The notes under the pieces were generated by a model. It was not told the DNA's origin, did no database searches, and saw nothing but the letters and a program-made list of their open reading frames with translations. A stretch of 64,000 nucleotides of DNA from a virus. This document shows, piece after piece, positions 898 to 47,431 of this stretch; the stretch's first letter is position 1, and each line of letters opens with the position of its first letter. The position numbers and the translations under genes are program-made. Location: positions 1 to 64,000 of the IMG/VR virus record IMGVR_UViG_3300038558_000079; one strand, written 5' to 3'.

Positions 898-992
898 AAC
901 ATGTCGGAAGCTGTACCTGATACCCTGTATACTTCCTAGCTTCCGACATGTTTACTTCTATTATAGATATTGAATACAACATGTCGGAAGCT
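898..992. repeat. Palindrome repeat, three-arm array
   Basis: Three 15-bp arms alternate in orientation: AACATGTCGGAAGCT at 898-912, AGCTTCCGACATGTT at 938-952, AACATGTCGGAAGCT at 978-992. Start-to-start spacing is exactly 40 bp both times. Other copies in the window have only two arms. It lies in the divergent gap between the exonuclease (minus) and the small gene at 1196 (plus). The rest of 808-1195 shows no gene I can support. Confidence 0.9.
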
Positions 993-3298: not shown

Positions 3299-3564
3299 CA
3301 ATGAATAACTTTACATTAAAACCGATAAAAATCCTCGAATCCCTCTCTATGTACACTTCCTAGCTTCCGACATGTTTACTCCTATATAGATATTGAAAAC
3401 AACATGTCGGAAGCTGAGAGTTAATGCTAGTAAAGGGTGTAGCGTTTCTGAGAACCAAGTTTTGACACCCTTGAAAAACCCACTAAAATACCCTTTTACA
3501 TCCCTTGACAATATGAGAATCTTTAATTAATATGGATACAGTAAAACATAAAAAGAGTAACACT
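3299..3564 (+). repeat. Leader-promoter module, copy 1 (contains palindrome 3362-3415)
   Basis: Begins with an A/T-rich block (CTTTACATTAAAACCGATAA), then the palindrome with arms 3362-3376 and 3401-3415, then a conserved stretch with GAGAACCAAGTTTTGA, and ends in a promoter TTGACA (3505-3510), N17, TAATAT (3528-3533). The conserved region continues into the transcript (GGATACAGTAAAACATAAAAAG). Similar modules occur at 4783, 10871 and, on the minus strand, at 47102-47431. Confidence 0.85.
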
Positions 3565-4038
3565 ATGGATTTACAAGCGTATCAAGATTTTCTAATTGAC
3601 TATTCTAATAACTTAAATACCGATATTCCTTTGCCTACAATAGCGAGATTAGGGTTGATGGCTAAATCGGGAAAAGTGATAGGGGCACTGATGGAGAACA
3701 AGGTAGATGCGATCGCGCTCAAAGATGATTTAGGAGATACCTTATCATATTTTCTGCTAGTCCTGAATCATCTAGAAATGCCTTTAATAGCAATCGGGGC
3801 TATAGGTGGTTGTCTTCAGGTTCCTTTAGCAGATAACTACTTGTTCTGTGCAAGGAACCTATACACATGCGTTGACAGTTTTCTCAGGCTTAAGCTTGCA
3901 CGCGAGTCACTCGAATTATTAATAGCCATTATACGAATAGGGTTACTCTATGACATTAAACTTGAGGATATTGTGTCTTATAGCTGGGACAAACTTAAGA
4001 AGCGGTTAGATGAGGGTGAATTGCAAGGATTTTGTTGA
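3565..4038 (+). CDS. MazG-like (all-alpha NTP pyrophosphohydrolase-type) protein
   Basis: 157 residues from ATG 3565. An upstream in-frame ATG at 3532 was rejected because it lies inside the -10 box of the promoter; the family start MxxAYQDFL also supports 3565. The core pattern LKDDLGDTLSYFLLVL and the closing LEDIVSYSWDKLKKR resemble MazG-type helices (E/DxLGDxLxY; LExVxxxNxxKLxxR). The usual first metal motif ExxE is not seen (GLMAKSGKVIGAL), so catalysis is doubtful. MazG enzymes of phages hydrolyse nucleoside triphosphates or ppGpp-like signals. Its stop codon is supplied by the first bases of an inserted insertion-sequence end. Confidence 0.55.
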   Translation: MDLQAYQDFLIDYSNNLNTDIPLPTIARLGLMAKSGKVIGALMENKVDAIALKDDLGDTLSYFLLVLNHLEMPLIAIGAIGGCLQVPLADNYLFCARNLYTCVDSFLRLKLARESLELLIAIIRIGLLYDIKLEDIVSYSWDKLKKRLDEGELQGFC

Positions 4039-4086
4039 CCTCTCCCCGGTCTAAAGACACGGGGCTTTCAGCGACTCATCTTGTAA
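4035..4086 (-). mobile_element. Detached right end of an IS200/IS605-type element
   Basis: A 52-bp segment identical to 10709-10760 and, over 44 bp, to 12206-12249 in reverse. It contains the hairpin CCCCGTGTCTTTAGACCGGGG (read on minus) and ends GAGAGGTCAA, exactly like the right end behind tnpB at 13846. It carries no gene. It abuts and terminates the MazG-like gene. Confidence 0.7.
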
Positions 4087-4719: not shown

Positions 4720-4782
4720 AGTGCATACCTGACAGGCTGATAAATTCTTAATCATATCGAGCTACGCATGGGAATTTAACTC
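4720..4782 (+). pseudogene. Remnant of the 3' end of a tape measure gene
   Basis: About 62 bp match, with roughly 80 percent identity by eye, the last codons of the tape measure gene at 47432-47490 (minus strand). In the tape-measure frame it still reads SYRATHG just before the leader module, as the real gene ends SYRATHGI, but it has an in-frame stop and no upstream gene. It shows that this segment was copied from a tape-measure/leader junction. Confidence 0.65.
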
Positions 4783-5108
4783 TCGGTAGGTATTAGTAAA
4801 GTTGAGAAATGGCAGTGACACAGCGTAACGTACATCGACCCATACAGTAGTCAAATGAACAACTTTGCATTAAATCCGATAAAAATCCCCGAATCCCTCT
4901 CTCTATACACTTCCTAGCTTCCGACATGTTCTATCCTATATAGTAATTGAAAACAACATGTCGGAAGCTGTGAGGTAATACCAGCAAGGTGTGTAGCGAT
5001 TCTGAGAACCAAATTTTGAAAACACCTAAAAATTCTCTCAGACACCACTTGACACCTTAGAGGAATTGAATTAGTATGGACACAGTAAAACATAAAAAGA
5101 GTAACACT
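4783..5108 (+). repeat. Leader-promoter module, copy 2 (palindrome 4916-4969)
   Basis: Starts GGTAGGTATTAGTAAAGTTG, nearly identical over about 200 bp to the copy at 10871. Palindrome arms 4916-4930 and 4955-4969. Promoter TTGACA (5049-5054), N17, TAGTAT (5072-5077). Leads into a truncated gene. Confidence 0.85.
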
Positions 5109-5150
5109 ATGGATTTACAAGCGTATCAAGATTTTTTAGCTAATTCATAA
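5109..5150 (+). pseudogene. 13-codon remnant of a MazG-like gene
   Basis: Starts MDLQAYQDFLA, identical for ten residues to the 3565 gene, then NS and stop. The 3' end of the large tail gene (minus strand) lies directly on the break, so the remainder was lost by deletion or insertion. Its full promoter module is preserved. Confidence 0.75.
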
Positions 5151-9358: not shown

Positions 9359-9413
9359 AGCTTCCGACATGTTGTATCCTATTATAGATAATGGAACCAA
9401 CATGTCGGAAGCT
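9359..9413. repeat. Palindrome repeat
   Basis: Arms 9359-9373 and 9399-9413, 40 bp apart, between the gpL-like and gpK-like genes. Spacer contains CTATTATAGATA as in the 938 and 16608 copies. The longer leader is absent here, so the palindrome can occur alone. Confidence 0.9.
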
Positions 9414-9461: not shown

Positions 9462-9998
9462 ATGAGTGACATATACAGCCTCATCGATGAAATGAAAATC
9501 AATCTGAGTTATAACAAAGCTACTAATCTCTGGAGTGCTACAGTAGGTGATTATACCGTAAAAGGTGCTACTGTCGAAAGTGCGGTGGAAAAATTCTTAC
9601 TACCTTCACACTGGTTACCAAAGGGTGAATTCTCCTATCCTGAGCATGATTGTTACTGGCTTGTTAGGAAAATCCGCGATCATTATGGATTGGATACCCC
9701 GAATTTCAAGTGGGTGTATGAGGCGTACCCAACAATAGCCTCACAACCTCTTGATTTAGCAGAACGATGCTTAAGTGGTGTTGCAACATTGAGAGTAGGG
9801 ACACCTCACCACTTAGATATAGCTCTTCTCTCACAAAACATCAACGCAGACTTAGGTACAGTTTTGGTTGTAGGTAATCACATCTGGATTGCATATATGT
9901 CGCATAAAGGTGCTGTTGCAGAACCTCTAGAGCGACGTGTAGGACGGATAGTAAAAAGCTATTGGGAGATACCGAATTATTCTCTGCATGTCGAGTAG
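9462..9998 (+). CDS. Tail assembly peptidase, gpK-like NlpC/P60 family
   Basis: 178 residues. The motif HDCYWLVRKIRDHYGL places the catalytic Cys at C64, and GNHIWIAYM (H140) gives the His expected in NlpC/P60 cysteine peptidases. The C-terminal AVAEPLERRVGRIVKSYWEI resembles the end of lambda gpK-type proteins. Such proteins act at the tail tip, and may cut peptidoglycan cross-links on entry. Follows the gpL-like gene, separated by a palindrome repeat. Confidence 0.65.
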   Translation: MSDIYSLIDEMKINLSYNKATNLWSATVGDYTVKGATVESAVEKFLLPSHWLPKGEFSYPEHDCYWLVRKIRDHYGLDTPNFKWVYEAYPTIASQPLDLAERCLSGVATLRVGTPHHLDIALLSQNINADLGTVLVVGNHIWIAYMSHKGAVAEPLERRVGRIVKSYWEIPNYSLHVE

Positions 9999-10557: not shown

Positions 10558-10728
10558 ATGAACACACCAAAAAAAGAGATAAGTATTTACGATATCGCCT
10601 ATTTCAATTGGCTGAGAAAAATAGTTGTGGAGACTCACCAATTGGAAGTAGAGAAAGTTGCAGCAGAATACAATAGGAAACTTGCTGAAACTAAAGTAGA
10701 GGGAACCATTGACCTCTCCCCGGTCTAA
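10558..10728 (+). CDS. Small protein truncated by an insertion-sequence end
   Basis: 56 residues, starting MNTPKKEISIYDIAYFNWL. Helical, charged (QLEVEKVAAEYNRKLAETKVEG). Its last codons (TIDLSPV, stop) come from the detached insertion-sequence end at 10709, so the original C-terminus is probably lost. Confidence 0.4.
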   Translation: MNTPKKEISIYDIAYFNWLRKIVVETHQLEVEKVAAEYNRKLAETKVEGTIDLSPV

Positions 10729-10760
10729 AGACACGGGGCTTTCAGCGACTCATCTTGTAA
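10709..10760 (-). mobile_element. Detached right end of an IS200/IS605-type element
   Basis: Same 52 bp as 4035-4086, including the GTCTTTAGAC hairpin and the GAGGTCAA end (read on minus). Gene-free remnant; it interrupts the small gene at 10558. The next ~110 bp show nothing I can assign. Confidence 0.7.
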
Positions 10761-10870: not shown

Positions 10871-11202
10871 GGTAAATATTAGTAAAGTTGAGAAATGGCA
10901 GTGACACAGCGTAACGTACATCGACCCATACAGTAGTCAAATGAACAACTTTGCATTAAATCCGATAAAAATCCCCGAATCCCTCTCTCTATACACCTTC
11001 TGGCTTCCGACATGTTCTATCCTATATAGTAATTGAAAACAACATGTCGGAAGCCAGGAGTTAATGCAGGCAAAGGATGTAGCGTTTTCGAGAACCAAGT
11101 TTTAACAACCTCAAAAACACCGCTAAAATACCCTTTTACACCCCTTGACATCTTAGAGGAATTGAATTAGTATGGATACAGTAAAACAAAAGAAAGCAAA
11201 GT
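10871..11202 (+). repeat. Leader-promoter module, copy 3 (palindrome 11002-11055)
   Basis: Nearly identical to the copy at 4783 for the first 200 bp. Arms are GGCTTCCGACATGTT (11002-11016) and AACATGTCGGAAGCC (11041-11055): the outer pair changed from A-T to G-C on both sides. Promoter TTGACA (11145-11150), N17, TAGTAT (11168-11173). The transcript start region is cut by a mobile element at about 11203, so no gene follows. Confidence 0.85.
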
Positions 11203-11555
11203 CAACAACCCCGGTCTAAAGACACGGGGCTTCCAGCCTAAAAAACTGAAGCCCGGAAGTTGACCAGCCTCAGTCGCAAGACTACGTTATCGGTAAGCGT
11301 TAAAGTTCATACCAGGAAATGCGAAGCTAGTTTCCTGCTCTAGAACCGAAAAGTTAAACAGGCGTAACGGGTTAAGTCAGTGCTTTTTGGATAGTACCGA
11401 CCGATAACATTGGCGAAGCTAACTTTACTCCGAAAGGAGATTGAGGCAACCATACCTCACCGGAGGGGCAACCATACCCCTCCACCCTGAAAGGGGCAGG
11501 CGGTTAAAACCGCTTCCACATGTTCCTCTCCGGTCTAAAGACGCGGAGTTTCCCA
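11203..11555 (-). mobile_element. Gene-less IS200/IS605-derived element with structured RNA
   Basis: Bounded by two versions of the terminal hairpin: CCCCGGTCTAAAGACACGGGG (11209-11229) and CTCCGGTCTAAAGACGCGGAG (11528-11548). Read on the minus strand the left part (AGCGGTTTTAACCGC) matches the end beside tnpA at about 17490-17535. The interior has no credible gene but several short inverted repeats, for example TTATCGGT / ACCGATAA, as in an omega-RNA scaffold. I interpret it as a MITE-like derivative. It truncates the module at 10871. Confidence 0.6.
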
Positions 11556-12205: not shown

Positions 12206-12249
12206 TTACAAGATGAGTCGCTGAAAGCCCCGTGTCTTTAGACCGGGGA
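12206..12249 (+). mobile_element. Insertion-sequence end fragment
   Basis: Same TTACAAGATGAGTCGCTGAA plus hairpin as the fragments at 4035 and 10709, here in plus orientation. After the hairpin it reads GATGAAAGCGC, similar to GATGAAGGCGC beside tnpA at 17500, so it may be the left boundary of the next element. Confidence 0.6.
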
Positions 12250-12268
12250 TGAAAGCGCTTTGCAGGAT

Positions 12269-12514: not shown

Positions 12515-13813
12515 TTGTACGGATGCCAACAGAATTTAATTAGTCCCACTCCAGAATTAAAGGCAATCCTTGAGTTTATCTGTTCAGAATCACATAAGCT
12601 GACTAACTGCGGTATCTACTATGCCCGTCAGTTATATTTCAAGACTCGTAAGTTAATTGGTAAGTACGACTTAGAAAAAGAGTACAAAGCCAACAAGCAC
12701 TATCAGGTCTTGCATTCTCAAGCCGCACAGCAAGTATTGAGAACAGTTGCTGAGTCTTTTCAATCTTTTAAGGAGTTAGATAAGAAGTACAGCAAGGGCG
12801 ACTTACATTTTAAACCCAAGCTGCCCAAATACCGTCAAGGCGCTGGTTATGCTCTAGTGACTTATCCTAAACAAGCTTTAAGACTTGTAGGTAACAATAT
12901 CAAAGTTCCGCTGGGCACGACAGTAAAAAGATGGTTTAAACTTGAATATTTCTTGTTGCCAATGCCATCCAATTTGGAGTTTGAGGACATCAAGGAATTG
13001 CGGATACTCCCACGTAATCAATGCTTCTATTCTGAGTTGGTCTACAAACAGAAACCAGCACCATCAAACACTTTCAATCAAAATAATGCGTTAGCAATTG
13101 ACCCCGGTATCAACAACTGGTTAAGCTGTGTATCCAATGTGGGGACTAGCTTCATTGTTGATGGACGTAAAGTTAAAAGTCTTAATCAGTGGTACAATAA
13201 GCGCGTTTCCACTCTCAAGGAAGGTAAACCACAAGGCTATTGGGATGAGCAGTTAGCCCAGATAACTGAAAAACGCAATCGCCAGATGCGTGACGCTGTT
13301 AATAAGGCGGCTAGATTGGTTGTTGACCACTGTATTAAATACCATATTGGCACGGTTATCTTTGGGTGGAACCAAGGACAACGGCAAGAGGCTAAATTAG
13401 GTAAAACAACTCAGGCTTTTGTTCAAATACCAACAGCCAAATTAAAAAAACGAATTGAACAACTGTGTGAGTATCACGGAATTAAGTTTGTTGAAGCAGA
13501 AGAATCTTATACTAGCAAAGCTAGTTTTCTAGATGGTGATTTTCTACCAACCTACGGCGAAAAACCCGAAACGTGGAAGCCAACAGGAAAACGAGTTAAA
13601 CGTGGAATGTACTGCACTGGCAAAGGTGTTCTAATCAACGCTGATTTGAACGGAGCCGCCAATATAATGCGGAAAGTAGAGACACAACTGGGCTTAAGTC
13701 TAGTCAAGGTCTGTAGGGCATTATTGACCGTGCCTACCAGATTTAAAATCTGGGAAACCAAAACCAAAAAGCGGAACCGGACGGCTTTAGCCTCCGGTGT
13801 AGCAACAGTTTAG
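12515..13813 (+). CDS. tnpB: TnpB, RNA-guided nuclease of IS200/IS605 type
   Basis: 432 residues, TTG start eight to ten bases after GGAGGT. RuvC-like residues are in place: D196 (LAIDPGIN), E329/E330 (VEAEESYTSKAS) and D377 (NADLNGAANI). The zinc ribbon that TnpB proteins usually have between the last two motifs is missing: no CxxC pair, the segment reads GEKPETWKPTGKRVKRGMY. TnpB cuts target DNA guided by an RNA made from its own 3' end and the element's right end, which here follows directly (hairpin to 13846). 40-50 percent alike to the copy at 18023 by eye. Confidence 0.9.
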   Translation: MYGCQQNLISPTPELKAILEFICSESHKLTNCGIYYARQLYFKTRKLIGKYDLEKEYKANKHYQVLHSQAAQQVLRTVAESFQSFKELDKKYSKGDLHFKPKLPKYRQGAGYALVTYPKQALRLVGNNIKVPLGTTVKRWFKLEYFLLPMPSNLEFEDIKELRILPRNQCFYSELVYKQKPAPSNTFNQNNALAIDPGINNWLSCVSNVGTSFIVDGRKVKSLNQWYNKRVSTLKEGKPQGYWDEQLAQITEKRNRQMRDAVNKAARLVVDHCIKYHIGTVIFGWNQGQRQEAKLGKTTQAFVQIPTAKLKKRIEQLCEYHGIKFVEAEESYTSKASFLDGDFLPTYGEKPETWKPTGKRVKRGMYCTGKGVLINADLNGAANIMRKVETQLGLSLVKVCRALLTVPTRFKIWETKTKKRNRTALASGVATV

Positions 13814-13846
13814 AATCCCCGTGTCTTTAGACCGGGGAGAGGTCAA
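13811..13846 (+). ncRNA. Right end / 3' end of predicted omega RNA
   Basis: GAATCCCCGTGTCTTTAGAC hairpin with CCGGGG closing the stem, then AGAGGTCAA at the element end. In ISDra2 the guide RNA scaffold ends in an equivalent hairpin and the bases beyond the element act as guide. The 5' end of the RNA would lie inside tnpB and cannot be set from sequence alone. Confidence 0.55.
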
Positions 13847-16607: not shown

Positions 16608-16662
16608 AGCTTCCGACATGTTGTATCCTATTATAGATAAAGTAGTAAACATGTCGGAAGCT
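16608..16662. repeat. Palindrome repeat with partial leader
   Basis: Arms 16608-16622 and 16648-16662. The leader text follows (GAGAGTTAATGCAGGCAAAG, then TTTTAACAACCTCAAAAACG) and an orphan TTGACA at 16752-16757, but the -10 and gene part of the module are gone. It occupies the gap 16316-16827, where I see no gene. Confidence 0.85.
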
Positions 16663-16827: not shown

Positions 16828-17145
16828 CTAAAGTCCAAACACTGTCTTTAAATCCTCTTGACACAAGGGGTAGTTTGCCAAGAGTGATTGAACCTTCACA
16901 TCATTAATATCAAGAATGTGGTCGGCTCTAGTATTCTCAACTGTAAGTGCGGTGTATAGCACAACCTCCCATGTACACTCTTTACGCCTGGTGTTGATAT
17001 CAAACCTGTGACCTAAATGGTCTTTGGGACTTCTAACTGTAAAATCATCTTCATTATCTCCCATTAGGAATAATGAAGTAGCCTCTATGGTGTCACAGGA
17101 TACGAATCTATCGCCTTCTCGCTTTGCAGGAATAACTTTCATCAA
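16828..17145 (-). CDS. Hypothetical protein
   Basis: 105 residues, begins MMKVIPAKREGDRFVSCDTIEATSLFLMGDNEDDF. Mixed alpha/beta, no recognised family. It has a clear promoter of the window's common type just upstream. It lies between two palindrome repeats. Confidence 0.6.
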   Translation of the reverse strand: MMKVIPAKREGDRFVSCDTIEATSLFLMGDNEDDFTVRSPKDHLGHRFDINTRRKECTWEVVLYTALTVENTRADHILDINDVKVQSLLANYPLCQEDLKTVFGL

Positions 17146-17255: not shown

Positions 17256-17309
17256 AGCCTCCGACATGTTTACTTCTTTATAGATATTGAACACAACATG
17301 TCGGAAGCT
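17256..17309. repeat. Palindrome repeat
   Basis: Arms AGCCTCCGACATGTT (17256-17270, one mismatch) and AACATGTCGGAAGCT (17295-17309). Followed by GAACCAAGTTTTGAAAA as in the leader modules, but no promoter is left. No gene in 17200-17477. Confidence 0.85.
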
Positions 17310-18022: not shown

Positions 18023-19348
18023 ATGGCTAAAAACAAGAAACAGCTAGGCGTTCAACAAATACTACTCCATCCCGACAAGGAGACAAAGGCTGTTCTTGAA
18101 TATTTGTGCGAACAGTCCGGTAAGCTGTACAACAGTGGGGTGTATTTTGCGCGTCAAACATTTTTCAAGACTGGTAAGTTACTGACGGGAAAGTTTGACT
18201 TAGTTTATGAGCAAACTGTAGGAAAAAGTCAGATTGCTCAGTCCTTACCGTCAACACCTGCGCAGCAAACATTATTGAGCGTCACCGAAGCGTTTAAATC
18301 CTACAAGGAATTGCGACAGCTCTGGGTTAAAGGACAATTGTCAGATAAGCCAAAACCACCTAATTATTTGAAGGGGTCAAAACTATTTAAGGTGGCATAC
18401 CCTAACTCAGGAGGTCAAAAGCCAAAAACAGTTGATGGGCAACTTCAATTCTCTCTCGGATTAACAGTTAAGCGATGGTTTGGCGTTGACAATTTTAAGC
18501 TACCGATACCAACAAACCTGGATATAACCAAAGTTAAAGAGTGGACAATACTTCCTAAAAATGGTGCATTTTATCTTGAAGCTTCCTACACTCTCGCTCA
18601 AGAGCAAACTTGTCGAGAATTTGCCAATCAAGCATTAGCAATTGACTTGGGTACTGCTGACAACTTAGCAGCTTGCGTTGACACATTAGGCAACTCTTTT
18701 TTGATTGATGCTCGTGCGATGAAAGCTTTCAATCAGTGCTGGAATAAACAAGTAGCAACCAGAAAAGAAAAAAAACCTGAAGGGTATTGGGACGCATGGC
18801 TTGACCGTGTAACTCGTAAGCGCAACCATCGAGTGAGAGATGGTATAAACAAGGCGGCAAGGATTATTGTTAGCCATTGTCTCAAGTACAGAATCGGAAC
18901 AATCGTCATAGGCTGGAATGAAGGCTTTAAGTGCAATGCCAATATGGGTAGATTGAACAATCAAAAATTTGTCCAAATACCATTGGGTAAGCTTAAAGAT
19001 AGGATCGAGCAATTGTGTGACTTGTATGGCATTAGGCTTGTGATAACCGAAGAGTCCTACACAAGCAAAGCTAGTTACTTAGATGGAGACTCCCTACCCA
19101 AATATGGTGAAAAACCAGAAGGGTGGAAAGCATCAGGTAAAAGAACAAAGCGCGGGTTGTACACAAGCAAAAATGGCTCACTAGTAAATGCGGACTTAAA
19201 CGGTGCCGCAAACATAATGAGCAAAGTAGCCAGAAAGCTAGGCATTGACTTAGCCCGACTGGGTAGACGGTCTTTGACAACCGTAACGAGAATCAGATTG
19301 TGGGTACTACCTCAGTCTACTCTGTCTGTAGAATCCCCGTGTCTTTAG
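18023..19348 (+). CDS. tnpB: TnpB, RNA-guided nuclease of IS200/IS605 type
   Basis: 441 residues from ATG 18023, preferred over GTG 18011 because GAGGT (18013-18017) then serves as ribosome binding site. RuvC-like residues (numbering from GTG 18011): D212 (LAIDLGT), E347/E348 (ITEESYTSKAS), D395 (NADLNGAANI). Like the copy at 12515 it lacks the CxxC zinc ribbon. The 3' end runs into the right-end hairpin that should be part of its guide RNA. Confidence 0.9.
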   Translation: MAKNKKQLGVQQILLHPDKETKAVLEYLCEQSGKLYNSGVYFARQTFFKTGKLLTGKFDLVYEQTVGKSQIAQSLPSTPAQQTLLSVTEAFKSYKELRQLWVKGQLSDKPKPPNYLKGSKLFKVAYPNSGGQKPKTVDGQLQFSLGLTVKRWFGVDNFKLPIPTNLDITKVKEWTILPKNGAFYLEASYTLAQEQTCREFANQALAIDLGTADNLAACVDTLGNSFLIDARAMKAFNQCWNKQVATRKEKKPEGYWDAWLDRVTRKRNHRVRDGINKAARIIVSHCLKYRIGTIVIGWNEGFKCNANMGRLNNQKFVQIPLGKLKDRIEQLCDLYGIRLVITEESYTSKASYLDGDSLPKYGEKPEGWKASGKRTKRGLYTSKNGSLVNADLNGAANIMSKVARKLGIDLARLGRRSLTTVTRIRLWVLPQSTLSVESPCL

Positions 19349-19363
19349 ATCGGGGAGTGTCAA
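19329..19363 (+). ncRNA. Right end / 3' end of predicted omega RNA
   Basis: Hairpin CCCCGTGTCTTTAGATCGGGG followed by AGTGTCAA at the element border. One A-T replaces G-C in the loop-proximal stem relative to the 13811 copy. Confidence 0.5.
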
Positions 19364-19955: not shown

Positions 19956-20010
19956 AGCTTCCGACATGTTACCTACAGTTACTATAAAAGAAGAGAACAT
20001 GTCGTAAAGT
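19956..20010. repeat. Palindrome repeat, degenerate and with inverted spacer
   Basis: Left arm AGCTTCCGACATGTT (19956-19970) is perfect; right arm AACATGTCGTAAAGT (19996-20010) is damaged. The spacer reads in the opposite direction to most copies (its complement begins CTCTTCTTTTATAGTAACTG), while the left flank keeps the usual direction. Confidence 0.75.
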
Positions 20011-20074: not shown

Positions 20075-20782
20075 ATGATTAGTAGATTACCAACCCAAGG
20101 GTTACCAGTAGAACTTCGGTCTGCATACTTCCATAGGATATGGGGGGAAGATGAGAGTATTGTCACTCAACTCTCCCAGCGGCAACAGCAAGCACTCAAA
20201 CTGTACTATGGATTGTTAGGGGAAAACCCACACCGGGTAAGGGAGATACAGGAAATCACAGGTAACAAGAATCATTCTTTAATTAGGTCATTGTGCTTAC
20301 AGGCATTTACAGCCTTGCAACGCAAAAAACAAAAGAGAATATGTGAACAGTTGGGAATCACCACAAAGGAGATACCTGTAAGCCTGAGAGCGGCCTATTA
20401 TCAGGCTATGTATTTCAATCTCGATTTAACTGAGGGATATGAAAAAATCCCGGTAAAGACTAAGAAAATATTCCAGTCCTATTATGCAGAGATAGGTAAG
20501 TGTCTTAGTGTTGAAGAATTAGCTTTTCGATATCAGTTAACACCAAAACGGGTGTTAAAGTTGATTTCTCATGCAGAGGACGCTCTGGTAGAGATTGCGC
20601 AGGCAAAGGTAGCTAGTACCATGTACCAGGAGTGGTTGAAAGTTACGAAAAGGTATTGTCCTAATTGCTTTTCAACCAATGTCACTCCACTTTACTCTCA
20701 GGGGCGACGGAACGGGTTAAGGTGTTTTGAATGCAATAAGCCAGTTTCACTCAACAGTTTCGGTCTGATTAGACTGGCTTAA
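20075..20782 (+). CDS. Double sigma-region-4-like HTH protein with zinc ribbon
   Basis: 235 residues. Internal duplication: PVELRSAYF (11-19) and PVSLRAAYY (101-109) each open a unit that ends in a sigma-70 region-4-like helix-turn-helix (first around LSQRQQQALKLYY, second around KIFQSYYAEIGKCLSVEELAFRY). The C-terminus is a zinc ribbon, C195-x2-C198 ... C217-x2-C220. This suggests a phage transcription factor that touches both DNA and RNA polymerase. Not a standard sigma factor, since region 2 is missing. Perfect promoter, so probably strongly expressed. The 3' end overlaps the portal gene by 36 bp, tail to tail. Confidence 0.55.
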   Translation: MISRLPTQGLPVELRSAYFHRIWGEDESIVTQLSQRQQQALKLYYGLLGENPHRVREIQEITGNKNHSLIRSLCLQAFTALQRKKQKRICEQLGITTKEIPVSLRAAYYQAMYFNLDLTEGYEKIPVKTKKIFQSYYAEIGKCLSVEELAFRYQLTPKRVLKLISHAEDALVEIAQAKVASTMYQEWLKVTKRYCPNCFSTNVTPLYSQGRRNGLRCFECNKPVSLNSFGLIRLA

Positions 20783-34285: not shown

Positions 34286-34741
34286 CTACGAAAATGTGGT
34301 TTTATAATATTCCTGTTCCAGGAATTGGGTGATGCACCCGGATACTACCTCGAGATTGTATTGTATTGTGATTGGTAGCGCTTCTATTTTTAGAATGTCA
34401 CCATCTCTAAGAATATAATTATTGGAGATGGCGACATCATCTTTTGTAATAATCATTTTCTTTGATTCAATTGAGAGTACATGTAGAATCTCGCCATTCA
34501 CACTTTCGGTGCAACGGATAAAACCAATATGCCGTGACACATAATCACTAGGTATATAGATTCCCTCATCAGTATTTTCAGTCAAAGGCGAACGCCCTAA
34601 TGCTACTGTATATCCGGGTTTTAAAGGTATCCTGTAATAAGGTGCTGTATACCCGCAAGCGGTATGAGGTCTACCTAGTTCCGTATTAGATGATTTTTTT
34701 GTATGTTTTTTTTGTTCTAGCTTAATAATAGCGAAGTTCAT
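34286..34741 (-). CDS. FHA-like domain protein
   Basis: 151 residues. VALGRSPL (about 46-53), IPSDYVSRHIGFIRC with the S-R-H of the phosphothreonine pocket, and LRDGDILKI near the end follow the FHA order. FHA domains bind phosphothreonine peptides. Missing the usual N-G loop. It may read out host or phage protein phosphorylation. Eight bases separate it from the membrane protein gene in the same direction. Confidence 0.55.
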   Translation of the reverse strand: MNFAIIKLEQKKHTKKSSNTELGRPHTACGYTAPYYRIPLKPGYTVALGRSPLTENTDEGIYIPSDYVSRHIGFIRCTESVNGEILHVLSIESKKMIITKDDVAISNNYILRDGDILKIEALPITIQYNLEVVSGCITQFLEQEYYKTTFS

Positions 34742-34856
34742 TTTTACACCGTTTTACCCCGTCATCCGCCAGTGTAGCACGAAACCCAGTGGTATTTTAC
34801 CGTTGTTCGGTTTTAGTATCCCAGAAACGCTGCATCACATACTCTGTATACTTCCT

Positions 34857-34910
34857 AGCTTCCGACATGTTGTATTCAATATCCATAAAGAAGTAAACAT
34901 GTCGGAAGCT
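34857..34910. repeat. Palindrome repeat with inverted spacer, before dnaE
   Basis: Arms 34857-34871 and 34896-34910 are perfect. Flanks match the 938 copy (CTGTATACTTCCT before the arm), but the spacer GTATTCAATATCCATAAAGA is the reverse complement of that copy's spacer. Confidence 0.9.
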
Positions 34911-35013
34911 AGGAAGTAATACCAGTAAAGGGTACAGCGTTTTATATCCCCATTTATTGAAAGTATGCTAAAACATAGTACAACAACACATAGAGCTACA
35001 TAAGGTGTAAATA

Positions 35014-35081: not shown

Positions 35082-38000
35082 ATGTCTAACAATAACAACG
35101 ATTGTCATAGCATCACTTCTCCTAATTTGATGAGCCAAGTTATGAGAACTAGTAATCGGAGCTACAGTCGAAAAACTACAGGTTTTGTAGGACTACATGC
35201 TCATTCCTACTTTAGTTTGCTCGATGCCTTTCGGAGTCCTACAGAGTTGGTAAAATGTGTTGCGGAATTGGGACAACCCGCGATCGCACTTACAGACCAC
35301 GGGGGGCTTTGGGGAACTGTTGAGTTAATGATAGCTTGCGAGAAGTATGGGATTACACCCATAGCAGGAAATGAGATGTACCTTAAAGATGACGCTGCTA
35401 CTCAACGTCTTAAAGAGTACGTGGGGGATGGCGATTACAAAGTTAAATCTCGATATCACCAATCGGTATTGGCGGTGTCACGAACAGGGTATGAAAATCT
35501 TTGTAAGCTCACCAGTGATTCATACCTAAAGACTTCAGAAAAAGTTAAAGGTAAGGTGTACCCCCTGGTAACCAAGGAAGACTTAGCAAGGCATAAAGAA
35601 GGATTAGTACTTACATCGGGGTGTTTAGCTGGTTTAGTATGTCAGGGTGTCTTGAGTGGTGATTTAGAATTTGCCAAGGATACTGCTAAGTGGTACAAAG
35701 ACACCTTTGGGGATAACTATTATATAGAACTTCAAGACCACGGGATAGAGGACGACCAACGTAAGGTAAACCTACATCTAGTTGCGATCGCTGAAGAATT
35801 AGAGATAGGGCTAGTTGTTACCGCAGATAGTCATTATGTGTACCCGTCACAAAAGGTGTCTCACAAGCATTTCCTCAGAATCAATAAGGGTGAAAAATTC
35901 TCTAATGTATACAAAGGAGATTTCTGGCATCCATCCGAATCAGAGATGGATTCACGTCTGGTGTATCTCCCCGATTGGGCAAGGGAACAGGCAATGGACA
36001 ACACTGTCTTAATTGCCCAGAAAGTACAACCGTACACACTAGCAAGTAAACCTGCTTCACCTAAGTTTACTCTACCTATGGGAACGACACCCGATGAGTA
36101 TTTAGAGCAACTTTGTCTGAAAGGATTAGAGCGGATTGGAGAGAGTGCTAACCCCATATACATTGAGCGATTGTACTATGAATTGGGGATACTTAAACTT
36201 AAGGGACTAGCAGATTACTTTCTGATAGTCCAGGACTATGTGAACTGGGCAAAGGCTCAGAAGATACCAGTTGGAGTAGGACGCGGTTCAGGTGGCGGTG
36301 CATTGGCGTGTTACGTCCTGAATATTACTACCATTGACCCCATTAAGCACGGGTTGATATTTGAGAGATTTATTAATCCAGAACGCGAATCATATCCAGA
36401 TATCGATGTTGACTTCTGTATGGAGCGCCGACATGAAGTAGTAGCCTACCTACAGGATAAGTATGGGGTCGGTAATGTTGCTAATATTATTACCTTCAAT
36501 AAGATGGAATCAAGATCAGCTCTTAAGGATGCTGGTTGGGTGTTAGGTGTGGACTTCACGGTACAAAACATATTCTCTAAGTCACTACCTGTAATCCGTG
36601 GGAAAAATATTAAGCTAAAAAATATCATTGAAGATCCAACATTAGCACCTGAGTTTATGGCACACTACGAAGCTAATGCAGTGGTACATTGCAATGTTAC
36701 TTTTCGAGAATGGGTAGATTTAGCAGTTGCCTTAGAAGGTACAGTAAAATCTACCGGGATTCATGCCTCTGGACTAATAATAGGAGATGAATCCTTAAGT
36801 AGTATTATCCCCTTACAGTGTACCCCTGATGGGACAATAACTTCTCAGTACAACATGAATGAAGTCGAATATATGGGTATCTTAAAAATGGATATTCTAG
36901 GGTTAAAAACTTTAACCATTCTCGACAAAGCCATGAAGTATATTGGCGGTGACTATTACGACCTAGAGAAGATAGACATTAACGATAGTAATGCTCTAAA
37001 CCTTCTAGCAACTACATCACCTGTGGGTATCTTTCAATTAGAAGCCGCTGAGAAAATGATCCATTTAGTCAAGCCGACTACATTCGAGGAGGTCGCTGAT
37101 GTCACGTCTTTGATACGTCCAGGGTGTTTTGATATGAGTATGCACAATGAATATACAGCAGTCAAATTCGGGCATTCTGAACCTACATATTGTACAGAAA
37201 AACTAAGGGGTATCTTAGGTTCTACTCACTCACAGTGTCTCTATCAAGAACAGCTACTTAGGATATGCACCGAGATTGCAGGATTCTCACTCGGATATGC
37301 CGATAATGTACGGCGGGGATGTGGTAAGAAAAAGAAGGAAGTGTTAGAACCTCTTAAGGAGTCCTTTGTTAAAGGGTGCTTAGGTAATGGGGAGTCTCAG
37401 GAAGTCGCTGATGAACTATGGGAAATCATCTTAGCAAGTGCTGGTTACTCATTTAATGCCAGTCACAGCAAGGCATATACAATAATCTCCATGTATACTG
37501 CATGGGTGCGTTACTACTACCCGGCACAATTCTTTGCAGCGCTACTTTCAGGGCAGAAAGACGTTGAGAAATTTGCTGAATATAGTACGGCTTTAAAACT
37601 CCACAATTTGAAATTGATACCGCCCGATATCAACACTAGCGATAGTGACTTTTTACCCATTAATGATGGTGTGTTGTTTGGGTTGGCTTATATCAATGGG
37701 TTAGGAGAAAAGACATTAGGGGATGTCTTCTCAGAACGCGCTAAAGGTAAATTCTTATCTCCGATTGACTTCTTTAGCAGGGTAAAAGTGTCCCAAGCAA
37801 CAGCACAAAAGTTAATTAAGGCTGGAGCCTTTGATAGCTTGGAATCTAATCGAGGCAAACTTTTGGAGAATTTACCAGATATCTTTAATTGGCTATCAAC
37901 ACATCGCAAGTTTGCACAAAAGGAACAGACTACTCTGGCTATACCAGGAATAGATTGGGGGAACTACCTGGTAGTACCTACACTTAAAGATTCCCCACAA

Positions 38001-38366
38001 TTATCTCTTAGACAACGGCTTGAGAATGAGAAGGACTTACTAGGAATAGCTCTAACAGGGCATATCCTGGATGAGTATAAGTTAGACGCTGTGGTTTTGA
38101 AGAATTTAGAAGTGGGGCAAGTATTAGAGGGTGTAATTGTAATTTCTGAAATGAGAAGTTATACCCAGAAAAATGGCGGTATTATGGGGTTTGTGACCTT
38201 AGAGGATATCTTGGGTAATAAGCTAAAGTGTACCGTATTCAGTAGTGCATGGTCTATCTCAAAAAGTTATATCCAAGTAAATACCCCATTGTATGTCAAT
38301 GTGAAAATTGGTACATACAATGGGGAAATTAATGGGATTGTTAACCGAATTAAGAGACTAAATTAA
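35082..38366 (+). CDS. dnaE: DNA polymerase III alpha subunit, unsplit
   Basis: 1094 residues. PHP domain near the start (LHAHSYFSLLDA, H39 and H41), palm with PDIDVDF (acidic residues 440-444) and KMDILGLKTL (D604), the SFNASHSKAY motif (S790), a helix-hairpin-helix part and a C-terminal OB fold. All catalytic acids are kept. It is shorter than bacterial DnaE (about 1160) but complete. In cyanobacterial chromosomes dnaE is usually split by an intein before the Cys of YCFNKSH; here that site reads YSFNASH, with Ser, and the gene is whole. So the replicon has its own replicase. Overlaps the RNR gene by 9 bp, tail to tail. Confidence 0.9.
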   Translation: MSNNNNDCHSITSPNLMSQVMRTSNRSYSRKTTGFVGLHAHSYFSLLDAFRSPTELVKCVAELGQPAIALTDHGGLWGTVELMIACEKYGITPIAGNEMYLKDDAATQRLKEYVGDGDYKVKSRYHQSVLAVSRTGYENLCKLTSDSYLKTSEKVKGKVYPLVTKEDLARHKEGLVLTSGCLAGLVCQGVLSGDLEFAKDTAKWYKDTFGDNYYIELQDHGIEDDQRKVNLHLVAIAEELEIGLVVTADSHYVYPSQKVSHKHFLRINKGEKFSNVYKGDFWHPSESEMDSRLVYLPDWAREQAMDNTVLIAQKVQPYTLASKPASPKFTLPMGTTPDEYLEQLCLKGLERIGESANPIYIERLYYELGILKLKGLADYFLIVQDYVNWAKAQKIPVGVGRGSGGGALACYVLNITTIDPIKHGLIFERFINPERESYPDIDVDFCMERRHEVVAYLQDKYGVGNVANIITFNKMESRSALKDAGWVLGVDFTVQNIFSKSLPVIRGKNIKLKNIIEDPTLAPEFMAHYEANAVVHCNVTFREWVDLAVALEGTVKSTGIHASGLIIGDESLSSIIPLQCTPDGTITSQYNMNEVEYMGILKMDILGLKTLTILDKAMKYIGGDYYDLEKIDINDSNALNLLATTSPVGIFQLEAAEKMIHLVKPTTFEEVADVTSLIRPGCFDMSMHNEYTAVKFGHSEPTYCTEKLRGILGSTHSQCLYQEQLLRICTEIAGFSLGYADNVRRGCGKKKKEVLEPLKESFVKGCLGNGESQEVADELWEIILASAGYSFNASHSKAYTIISMYTAWVRYYYPAQFFAALLSGQKDVEKFAEYSTALKLHNLKLIPPDINTSDSDFLPINDGVLFGLAYINGLGEKTLGDVFSERAKGKFLSPIDFFSRVKVSQATAQKLIKAGAFDSLESNRGKLLENLPDIFNWLSTHRKFAQKEQTTLAIPGIDWGNYLVVPTLKDSPQLSLRQRLENEKDLLGIALTGHILDEYKLDAVVLKNLEVGQVLEGVIVISEMRSYTQKNGGIMGFVTLEDILGNKLKCTVFSSAWSISKSYIQVNTPLYVNVKIGTYNGEINGIVNRIKRLN

Positions 38367-44841: not shown

Positions 44842-46560
44842 TTAAATTAAATACCAGAGTACATACCCAGCAACATCTGCTGTAAGCGATAAATTCATCA
44901 CAAAAGCTGTGTTAGTAGCTAGAACTAGTGGGTGAGTATAGTCCGCTGCATGTTCATTTATAGCCATTGCACCTGTTATAGCTGTAGTGTCACTTTTGAG
45001 GGTAACAGCACCGTTTGAAAGTGTGAAATATAGCCCTGTAATTGCAATTTTCTGACTTGCAACAGCACCGAGAACCGTAACATCACCGACACCTGCTGTG
45101 ATACTGATAGCAGTAACAATAGGGATTCTATCTATCTTTTCTGCTATATACCGTAATTGCTGTGTGGTTGTTCCATTGGGGTTAGCAGCAGCACCTACAG
45201 TGCCAATCTTATCTTGAATAACTTGAAGTTGAGCTATAGAGTCTACATCAACTACTTTTAAGTTTTCATTGGCATCTAATAGTAAAGGCTTAAGCACTCC
45301 TGATTTACTACCAAGTACTACATTGCCTGTAGGGGTACTATTCGTAGTCTCGAAAGCGTACTGGACATTAGTTAGATTAGGCGTAGCGACCTGTAAGTAG
45401 TTGTTCGTGTCTAACTGCAAAGCCTTAGCTACACCTGATTTATTAGCTAGTGCTACAGTACCAGTAGGTGTTGCACTGGTTGTACCATCGGCATACTGGA
45501 CATTAGTTAGATTAGGTGTAGCGACCTGTAAGTAGTTATTAGTGTCTAACTGTAAAGCCTTAAGCACACCTGATTTATTAGCTAATACCACACTACCTGT
45601 AGGTGTGGCGCTGGTTGTGTTATCAACATACTGTGTGTTAGTAAGGTTAGGTGTAGTAACCTGTAAGTAATTATTAGCGTCTAACTGTAAAGCCTTAGTC
45701 ACGCCAGATTTATTAGCTAGTGCTACAGTGCCAGTAGGTGTTGCGCTAGTCGTACCATCGGCATACTGGATTCCACCACCGCCGCCTCCTCCACTGACTA
45801 CATTTACCGATATAGGAGATGAAGCTGTAATCGGAATTGCACTTTGCGCCGATATCTGCAATGCACCCGCATTATCTAACTTGAGTGCAGTTAGTGTCCC
45901 ATCGCTTTCTTTCGCTAATAGTACAGCACCCGATAGTGTTGCTGGGGAACTACCCTCTAGGTATTCTGTTGGTGCTGGATTATTCCCCGCCGCGATCGCA
46001 ATCTTTAAATAACCACTTGAATCAATCTCTACAGGAAAAATTTCCCCTGTACTTCGTCTTCCCAAGAATAGATTGCCTCGTGGTGTTGCAGGATTACTAC
46101 CACTATCATACTGAGTGCCTCCACCACTATTCTCACCAATAAATCGTAGTTGCTGTGAGATAGTGCCAGAAGTGGACGCGGTGTTACTTCCATCAAATAA
46201 TAACTTTATGAGTAGTCTGATTAATCCACTCATCCCCGACACGCTATTATGGTCTGTTGCGGGTGCATCGGTTGTGCCCCCAATGCGTGTCTCTAAGCTA
46301 GTCTGTGTCGCTGTCAGGGTAGATTCTGTAGCACCACCTGTTGGTTGATTGGCTACGAATATTTCCCCACTACCATTGATCTTTATCTTATTCCCTGGTG
46401 TAGTGGGGTCTTGAACTGTTACGGAATTCGCGCTGCTACCCGTATCAACAGGTAGTCTATTCTCTGATGTCCAGACCGCAGCCAAAGATGCCGCGATCTG
46501 CTTTGCTAATGCTTTAATTGCCACAAGGTTTTTCCATGTACTTTGTGGTAATTGTAGCAT
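44842..46560 (-). CDS. Tail fibre with near-identical 45-residue repeats
   Basis: 572 residues. N-terminal coil (IKALAKQIAASLAAVW), then at least six units of about 45 residues with the pattern YxxGxxxATPxGxVxLxxKSGxxKALQLDxNxYLQV, four of them nearly identical, then a C-terminal beta domain. The DNA repeat (135 bp) spans about 45340-45780. A poly-Gly run (GGGGGG) lies just before the repeats. Likely host-binding fibre. Confidence 0.65.
   Translation of the reverse strand: MLQLPQSTWKNLVAIKALAKQIAASLAAVWTSENRLPVDTGSSANSVTVQDPTTPGNKIKINGSGEIFVANQPTGGATESTLTATQTSLETRIGGTTDAPATDHNSVSGMSGLIRLLIKLLFDGSNTASTSGTISQQLRFIGENSGGGTQYDSGSNPATPRGNLFLGRRSTGEIFPVEIDSSGYLKIAIAAGNNPAPTEYLEGSSPATLSGAVLLAKESDGTLTALKLDNAGALQISAQSAIPITASSPISVNVVSGGGGGGGIQYADGTTSATPTGTVALANKSGVTKALQLDANNYLQVTTPNLTNTQYVDNTTSATPTGSVVLANKSGVLKALQLDTNNYLQVATPNLTNVQYADGTTSATPTGTVALANKSGVAKALQLDTNNYLQVATPNLTNVQYAFETTNSTPTGNVVLGSKSGVLKPLLLDANENLKVVDVDSIAQLQVIQDKIGTVGAAANPNGTTTQQLRYIAEKIDRIPIVTAISITAGVGDVTVLGAVASQKIAITGLYFTLSNGAVTLKSDTTAITGAMAINEHAADYTHPLVLATNTAFVMNLSLTADVAGYVLWYLI
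45340..45780 (-). repeat. 135-bp tandem repeats in fibre gene
   Basis: Three to four direct units sharing long identical blocks such as ACATTAGTTAGATTAGGTGT on the plus strand. High identity means recent expansion or correction between units. Confidence 0.8.
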
Positions 46561-47101: not shown

Positions 47102-47431
47102 GGTCTTATGTCTCTTTTTGCTTTACTGTGTCCATAATAATTCAAATCTTCTAAGGTGTCAAGTGGTGTCTGAAAGAATTTTTAGGTGATTTCAAAACTT
47201 GGTTCTCAGAATCGCTACATACCTTACTGGTATTAACTCTCAGCTTCCGACATGTTGTTTTCAATTACTATATAGGATAGAACATGTCGGAAGCCAGAAG
47301 GTGTACAGAGAGAGGGATTTAGGGATTTTTATCAGATTTAATGCAAAGTTATTCATTGGACTACTATATGCGATGATGTACGTTACACTATATCAGTACC
47401 AGATTTAAACTTTACTAATACCTACTGAGAC
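47102..47431 (-). repeat. Leader-promoter module, copy 4, likely the original
   Basis: Minus orientation. Starts immediately after the tape measure stop (GGTATTAGTAAAG), palindrome arms 47295-47281 (GGCTTCCGACATGTT on minus) and 47256-47242, GAGAACCAAGTTTTGA, then promoter TTGACA (47162-47157), N17, TATTAT (47139-47134). As the 4783 copy carries tape-measure remains, this position is the best candidate source. Confidence 0.85.

Follow-up and report, generated by a model that had tools for sequence, protein, structure and literature searches.

The palindrome at 34858 raises the question of whether the loop between its arms has been turned around in place and, if so, whether such turning acts as a switch. 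An earlier note on this DNA had proposed both, ascribing the inversion to a recombinase or to cruciform processing. The window, i.e., the whole 64-kb stretch that was analysed, comprises positions 1-64000 of a virus record 90,554 bp long, and orientation was read from the palindrome copies of the entire record.

The palindrome family and its setting

The family has the form GCTTCCGACATGTT-N24/25-AACATGTCGGAAGC, with 10 copies in the window (Table 1) and 16 in the record, those beyond the window being at 66231, 71234, 75523, 79205, 83638, and 85192. Allowing up to two mismatches, the window has 20 matches to GCTTCCGACATGTT where shuffles would give 0.27, which bears out the ten palindromes previously described, although the invariant arm is 14 bp long and not 15 bp as then stated. 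The arms are invariant in sequence and do not vary by compensatory changes, and a single strand folds into a 14-bp stem. Identity between the halves is 96% in the arms, 47% over the first 30 flanking bases and 34% over the next 40 bases, and the bases directly beside the arms differ among copies (TAG, TGA, CAG, TGG). Four copies have a third arm located 27 nt past one of the arms (at 898, 71314, 75603, and 85151). Flanks and loops are partly conserved, and judged by this conservation the loop may have some function.

Table 1. Palindrome copies of the window and further features.
Position	Strand	Feature
898..911	-	arm 3 of the 939 element; T loop of 27 nt between it and the left arm
939..991	+	palindrome, 25-nt loop in plus orientation (TATTATAGATA); flanks T (left) and G (right)
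3363..3414	+	palindrome, 24-nt plus loop; F2 flank left, F1 flank right
4917..4968	+	palindrome within duplicate of the 3363 element; gene start truncated
9360..9412	+	palindrome, 25-nt plus loop; 49 nt upstream of gene 9462-9998
11003..11054	+	palindrome, family of 3363 and 4917; TTGACA 90 nt past right arm
16609..16661	+	palindrome, mosaic loop (plus core, both ends minus-like); F1 flank right
17257..17308	+	palindrome; TTGACA promoter exactly 57 nt past left arm, leftward into 16828-17145
19957..20009	-	palindrome, right arm decayed (AACATGTCGtAAag); minus loop
20075..20782	+	gene; two stretches of its protein match the sigma-70 family weakly (E 7e-9, under the curated cut-off)
34825..34942		extended quasi-palindrome around 34858; 58-nt arms, 74% complementary
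34858..34909	-	palindrome, flanks T (left) and F1 (right); 14-bp arms; 24-nt loop turned relative to the two flanks
47243..47294	-	palindrome; 4917 element copied and inverted as a whole (330 nt, 88% complementary), no flip of the loop alone
4035-4086, 10709-10760, 11200-11251, 12217-12258, 13811-13839, 19329-19357		hairpin CCCCGGTCTAAAGACACGGGG

All 16 copies are intergenic, i.e., they lie outside the ORFs used, compared to 15% of 52-nt windows that are non-coding. The copy at 34858, in which the arms run on for 9 further perfect pairs, sits between the divergent genes 34286-34741 (minus strand) and 35082-38366 (plus strand), and the extended quasi-palindrome around it folds as single-stranded DNA at -34.3 kcal/mol (z -10.7). 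The TTGACA of a good sigma-70-like promoter starts exactly 57 nt outside the arm to the left of 17257 and 79205 and on both sides of 83638, where the two promoters stand over divergent genes; the offset is 80 nt in two flanks and 90 nt in two. At 3363 TTGACA is found 47 and 90 nt past the right arm and gene 3532-4038 starts 117 nt on, while at 19957 a TTGACA-18-TATAAT motif lies 8 nt past the arm. The consensus promoters are outside the palindrome, and outward gene starts are mostly about 50-170 nt away from it. The sites had been placed in promoters and leaders, which is right in part, as most lie upstream of consensus promoters and not inside leaders.

Other repeats are present in the same DNA. 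Positions 4769-5140 duplicate the 3363 palindrome together with its promoter and the beginning of gene 3532, the copy of the gene being truncated. The hairpin CCCCGGTCTAAAGACACGGGG occurs at the ends of TnpB-type genes and of a HEARO RNA (11201-11428, plus strand; RF02033, 157 bits), and two identical 52-nt copies of it have no TnpB gene directly adjacent. No long IscB/IsrB-type ORF directly follows the HEARO RNA in the ORF list. Direct repeats with a 135-nt period occupy 45254-45770 within gene 44842-46560.

The window codes for a portal protein, a terminase large subunit, a DnaE-like polymerase and a ribonucleotide reductase (RNR), and the record outside the window for helicases, a cytosine methyltransferase and a thymidylate synthase domain; two pentapeptide-repeat proteins (L010:10600-11220 and L010:11444-12271) are encoded close to the record end. 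An abundance of GCGATCGC or CGATCG is a hallmark of cyanobacterial DNA. As the RNR relatives of the record sit in virus contigs with many copies of GCGATCGC or CGATCG, the host is probably a cyanobacterium, which suggests that the virus is a cyanophage. The 34858 region resembled no known phage or plasmid in searches at the DNA level, and searches with the terminase, the DNA polymerase, the RNR, a 4517-aa protein and a helicase returned distant relatives only. Two RNR loci (L012, L013) had no comparable repeat family among their listed repeats, and the exact arm pair had no match in IMG/VR and the species genomes, where no near relative or exact palindrome family was found for a comparison of loop orientation at one site. 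When the palindrome core was relaxed, the search matched one unrelated virus and had 12 matches in genomes. The matches in a Trichodesmium MAG were rejected as family members, as their arms differ (GTCGCCGACATGTT) and they resemble an unrelated REP-type repeat. These REP-like palindromes with GTCGCCGACATGTT arms (L018, L020, L022) also have loops that are reverse complements of each other on different contigs, and flips of the loop or of the whole element may have occurred there as well.

Orientation of the loops relative to their flanks

With plus orientation defined by the loop core TATTATAGATA, the loops split into two clear sets, plus at 939, 3363, 4917, 9360, 11003, 16609, 17257, 66231, and 79205, and minus at 19957, 34858, 47243, 71234, 75523, 83638, and 85192. 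The motif count for 79205 was tied 1:1, and its orientation was hence taken from match scores (20-21 direct vs. 12 inverted, against 939 and 3363). The flanks, read outward from the left (L) or right (R) arm, form four subfamilies: T (939L, 71234R, 75523R, 85192L and, as a weaker member, 34858L), G (939R, 71234L, 75523L), F1 (3363R, 4917R, 11003R, 16609R, 47243L, 34858R, 85192R) and F2 (3363L, 4917L, 11003L, 47243R, 66231L). The G and F2 flanks are found on a constant side of the loop in every member. The T flank is on one side of the loop at 939, 71234, and 75523 and on the opposite side at 85192 and 34858, and the F1 flank on one side at 3363, 4917, 11003, 16609, and 47243 and on the opposite side at 34858 and 85192. 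The loop at 34858 and at 85192 is therefore reversed relative to both of its flanks.

The assignment of the 34858 flanks rests on 30-45 nt. Gapped alignment agrees with it and scores 34858L at 45 to the T flank 71234R and 37 to 939L, and 34858R at 60 to 85192R, 24-32 to the other F1 flanks and 21 to 939L. At 85192L 36 of 44 positions match T and 13 match F1, and the loop is nonetheless reversed. The first 3-7 nt outside the arms of this copy look exchanged too (TGA at the T flank and TAGGAAGT at the F1 flank), so that the exchange point may lie at or just outside the stem base. Elsewhere the core loop has turned along with both flanks, i.e., the whole element is inverted at 47243, 71234, and 75523. 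A whole-element flip was rejected as a simple explanation for 34858 and 85192, where loop and flanks disagree. Whole-element flips and loop flips can in this way be told apart by flank subfamily.

The earlier note drew on the sites 939 and 34858. The loops of 939 and 34858 are indeed reverse complements (22 inverted vs. 12 direct matches over 24-25 nt) and their common left flank is real, both belonging to subfamily T. The right flanks differ, G at 939 and F1 at 34858, a point that had been missed, and the 34858 loop is inverted relative to its F1 flank as well. For the copy at 19957, also said to have an inverted spacer, the loop is minus but the flanks fit no subfamily that shows inversion, and the claim is not confirmed.

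A second loop is available for comparison in the copies with three arms. At 939, 71234, and 85192 the outward sequence of the T-side 27-nt loop is TAGGAAGTATACAGGG... or a close variant. At 75523 this second loop, which spans the 27 nt from arm 2 to the third arm, is reversed (24/27 inverted vs. 11/27 direct matches with 71234 as reference), whereas its core loop and G flank have kept collinearity with 71234 and with reversed 939. Past the third arm 75523 has a weaker likeness to 71234 (20/45, shuffle p 0.006). To judge by these alignments the second loop of 75523, which lies outside the 64-kb window, is the cleanest example of loop inversion; together with the core loop of 85192, also beyond the window, it makes up the two strongest cases.

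Inversion of a loop between its arms has thus taken place, probably in at least two events but not often. The reversals at 34858 and 85192 may be a single event because both copies have the same flank types, and the mosaic loop at 16609 hints at a further exchange. Copies with strongly similar flanks have identical core-loop orientation (3363, 4917, 11003, and 47243; 939, 71234, and 75523) and disagreement is confined to more distant copies; since close copies always agree, flips are rarer than duplications. Relative to the side of the gene or promoter, the loop points one way in 9 copies and the other way in 7. This independence of orientation from the gene side counts against a switch.

Possible origins of the reversed loops

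It is somewhat more probable than its alternatives taken together that the family represents phage-specific, bidirectional upstream regulatory palindromes in which the arms are under selection and the loops flip passively, through template switching or exchange. A DNA-binding regulator would probably contact the 14-bp arms and also positions about 28 nt farther out, where conservation is weak; its place would be roughly 50-100 nt upstream of a sigma-70-like promoter, on one side or on both. Only weak constraint would act on the loop, which would flip now and then because the arms are perfect inverted repeats. The flip, in place, could come from template switching in two steps when the hairpin is replicated or repaired, or else from exchange inside the arms with another copy of opposite orientation, and would be mostly neutral. 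What the sequences show is the family with its intergenic position, its conserved arms, promoter motifs that recur at set offsets and loops reversed relative to their flanks at 34858, at 85192 and in the second loop of 75523; that a regulator binds, how the loops flip and that flips are neutral is inferred. The gene 20075-20782 is located directly downstream of the 19957 element, and it is tempting to speculate that its product is a candidate for the regulator that binds the arms; its predicted structure (pLDDT 41.5) is too poor for use. The record outside the window also has a gene for a RuvC-like Holliday junction resolvase (L009:8353-8850), possibly of relevance to cruciform processing.

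The main rival is homologous exchange among dispersed copies of opposite orientation, with crossovers in or near the arms and no involvement of a hairpin. In agreement with this, copies occur in both orientations across the record, elements are mosaic in flank type (e.g., 85192, which combines T and F1) and the 16609 loop joins a plus core to minus ends. On the other hand arms of 14 bp are short for homologous exchange, and the reversed loop of 75523 needs an oppositely oriented donor of the rarer T loop, for which 939 and 85192 are available. The present copies do not separate template switching from exchange between copies; that exchange acted on its own is possible but rather doubtful.

It is improbable that the palindrome is a mobile element of the REP or MITE type, inserted both ways so that loop orientation simply records the orientation of insertion. 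The 330-nt inverted copy of 4917 at 47243 would fit, as would the two Y1 transposases encoded by the record, but the disagreement of loop and flanks at 34858, 85192, and 75523 is impossible by insertion of a whole element, and the flank types differ among elements, which have no ends in common. Because TnpB-like genes are found near both Y1 genes, these look like ordinary IS200/IS605 elements, and their hairpin ends differ from the palindrome.

A switch would have a recombinase flip the loop and re-aim a promoter formed by CCGACA of the arm and TATAAT of the loop. Six loops do carry this sigma-70-like motif with 16-nt spacing, and loop orientations vary between sites; since the motif would turn with the loop, the switch keeps a small probability. 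The full TATAAT is however found in only 6 of the 16 loops, near-identical copies are in constant agreement, and orientation does not follow the gene side. Neither tyrosine, serine nor IS110 recombinases (PF00589, PF00239, PF01548) had a match in the 90.5-kb record, which may be incomplete, and a host-encoded recombinase acting on the arms is possible. DNA is too stiff to allow ordinary double-stranded synapsis of two sites that lie 24-27 bp apart (38-41 bp when measured between centres). Of the two routes to inversion in the earlier note, cruciform or hairpin processing is a better fit than a recombinase, and the switch is very unlikely.

Transcription terminators or RNA leader hairpins are just as unlikely. 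A strong stem does form on folding with DNA parameters, but no T run follows it, a terminator scan was negative at the 34858 palindrome, the arms are invariant and lack a pattern of compensatory changes, and the predicted promoters lie outside and face away, so that their transcripts would not contain the palindrome. That whichever arm is upstream provides a -35 and the loop a -10 element, so that a flip of the 25-nt loop would reverse the promoter and make the copies dispersed, hairpin-driven direction switches that work without a dedicated recombinase, is very unlikely too.

Comparison with known systems

In invertible promoters of the fimS and Hin type the promoter lies within a segment between inverted repeats. 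The likeness to the present palindromes is the promoter-like motif between inverted repeats; the differences are that no invertase was found in the record, that the segment is far too short and that there is no sign of fast flipping. Similarly, REP palindromes with Y1 transposases (RAYT) are intergenic, and Y1 transposases are present in this record, but in REPs one end is tagged with GTAG or CGTC (PMC3733652) whereas the bases beside the phage arms vary, and neither tag was found at the stem foot among the copies. Mycobacteriophage stoperators, i.e., dispersed repressor sites, are likewise short, conserved and scattered in large number over a single phage genome. Stoperators are asymmetric and bound by a monomeric repressor (PMC9283540), while the arms here are paired and inverted, with fixed spacing, upstream of promoters.

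The promoter early stem-loops (PeSLs) of T4-type phages are repeated stem-loops beside host-like promoters between genes, as the palindromes are, and are linked to gene shuffling (PMC4503421). They have been titled promoter-terminator composites. The present family has promoter motifs, but no terminator signature was found at the 34858 palindrome, and the palindromes differ from PeSLs in having a 24-25-nt loop, up to three arms and promoters that lead outward from them on one side or on both.

The palindromes also resemble cases of template switching at hairpins, which is reported to invert a loop in place and to leave no footprint in perfectly paired stems (PMC8794818); inverted hairpin loops of chloroplasts are termed "minute inversions" in the plastid literature. 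Here too the loop is reversed in place with its length kept and the stem unchanged, and at 34858, at 85192 and in the second loop of 75523 it is reversed relative to the flanks between paired arms. The rRNA loops among the template-switch cases are mostly of 4 nt (PMC8794818) and the phage loops of 24-27 nt, and in this dispersed phage family it is paralogous copies, not orthologous sites, that give the orientation. The flipped loops are most likely a by-product of copying or recombining hairpins and not a deliberate genetic switch. They provide a compact natural case of a 24-27-nt loop turned inside a strictly conserved palindrome, legible from 16 paralogous copies, and a warning that reversed cores in paralogous phage palindromes can occur without any switch. 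The family itself suggests that this virus, a probable cyanophage, has a control element close to its promoters of a kind so far unstudied.
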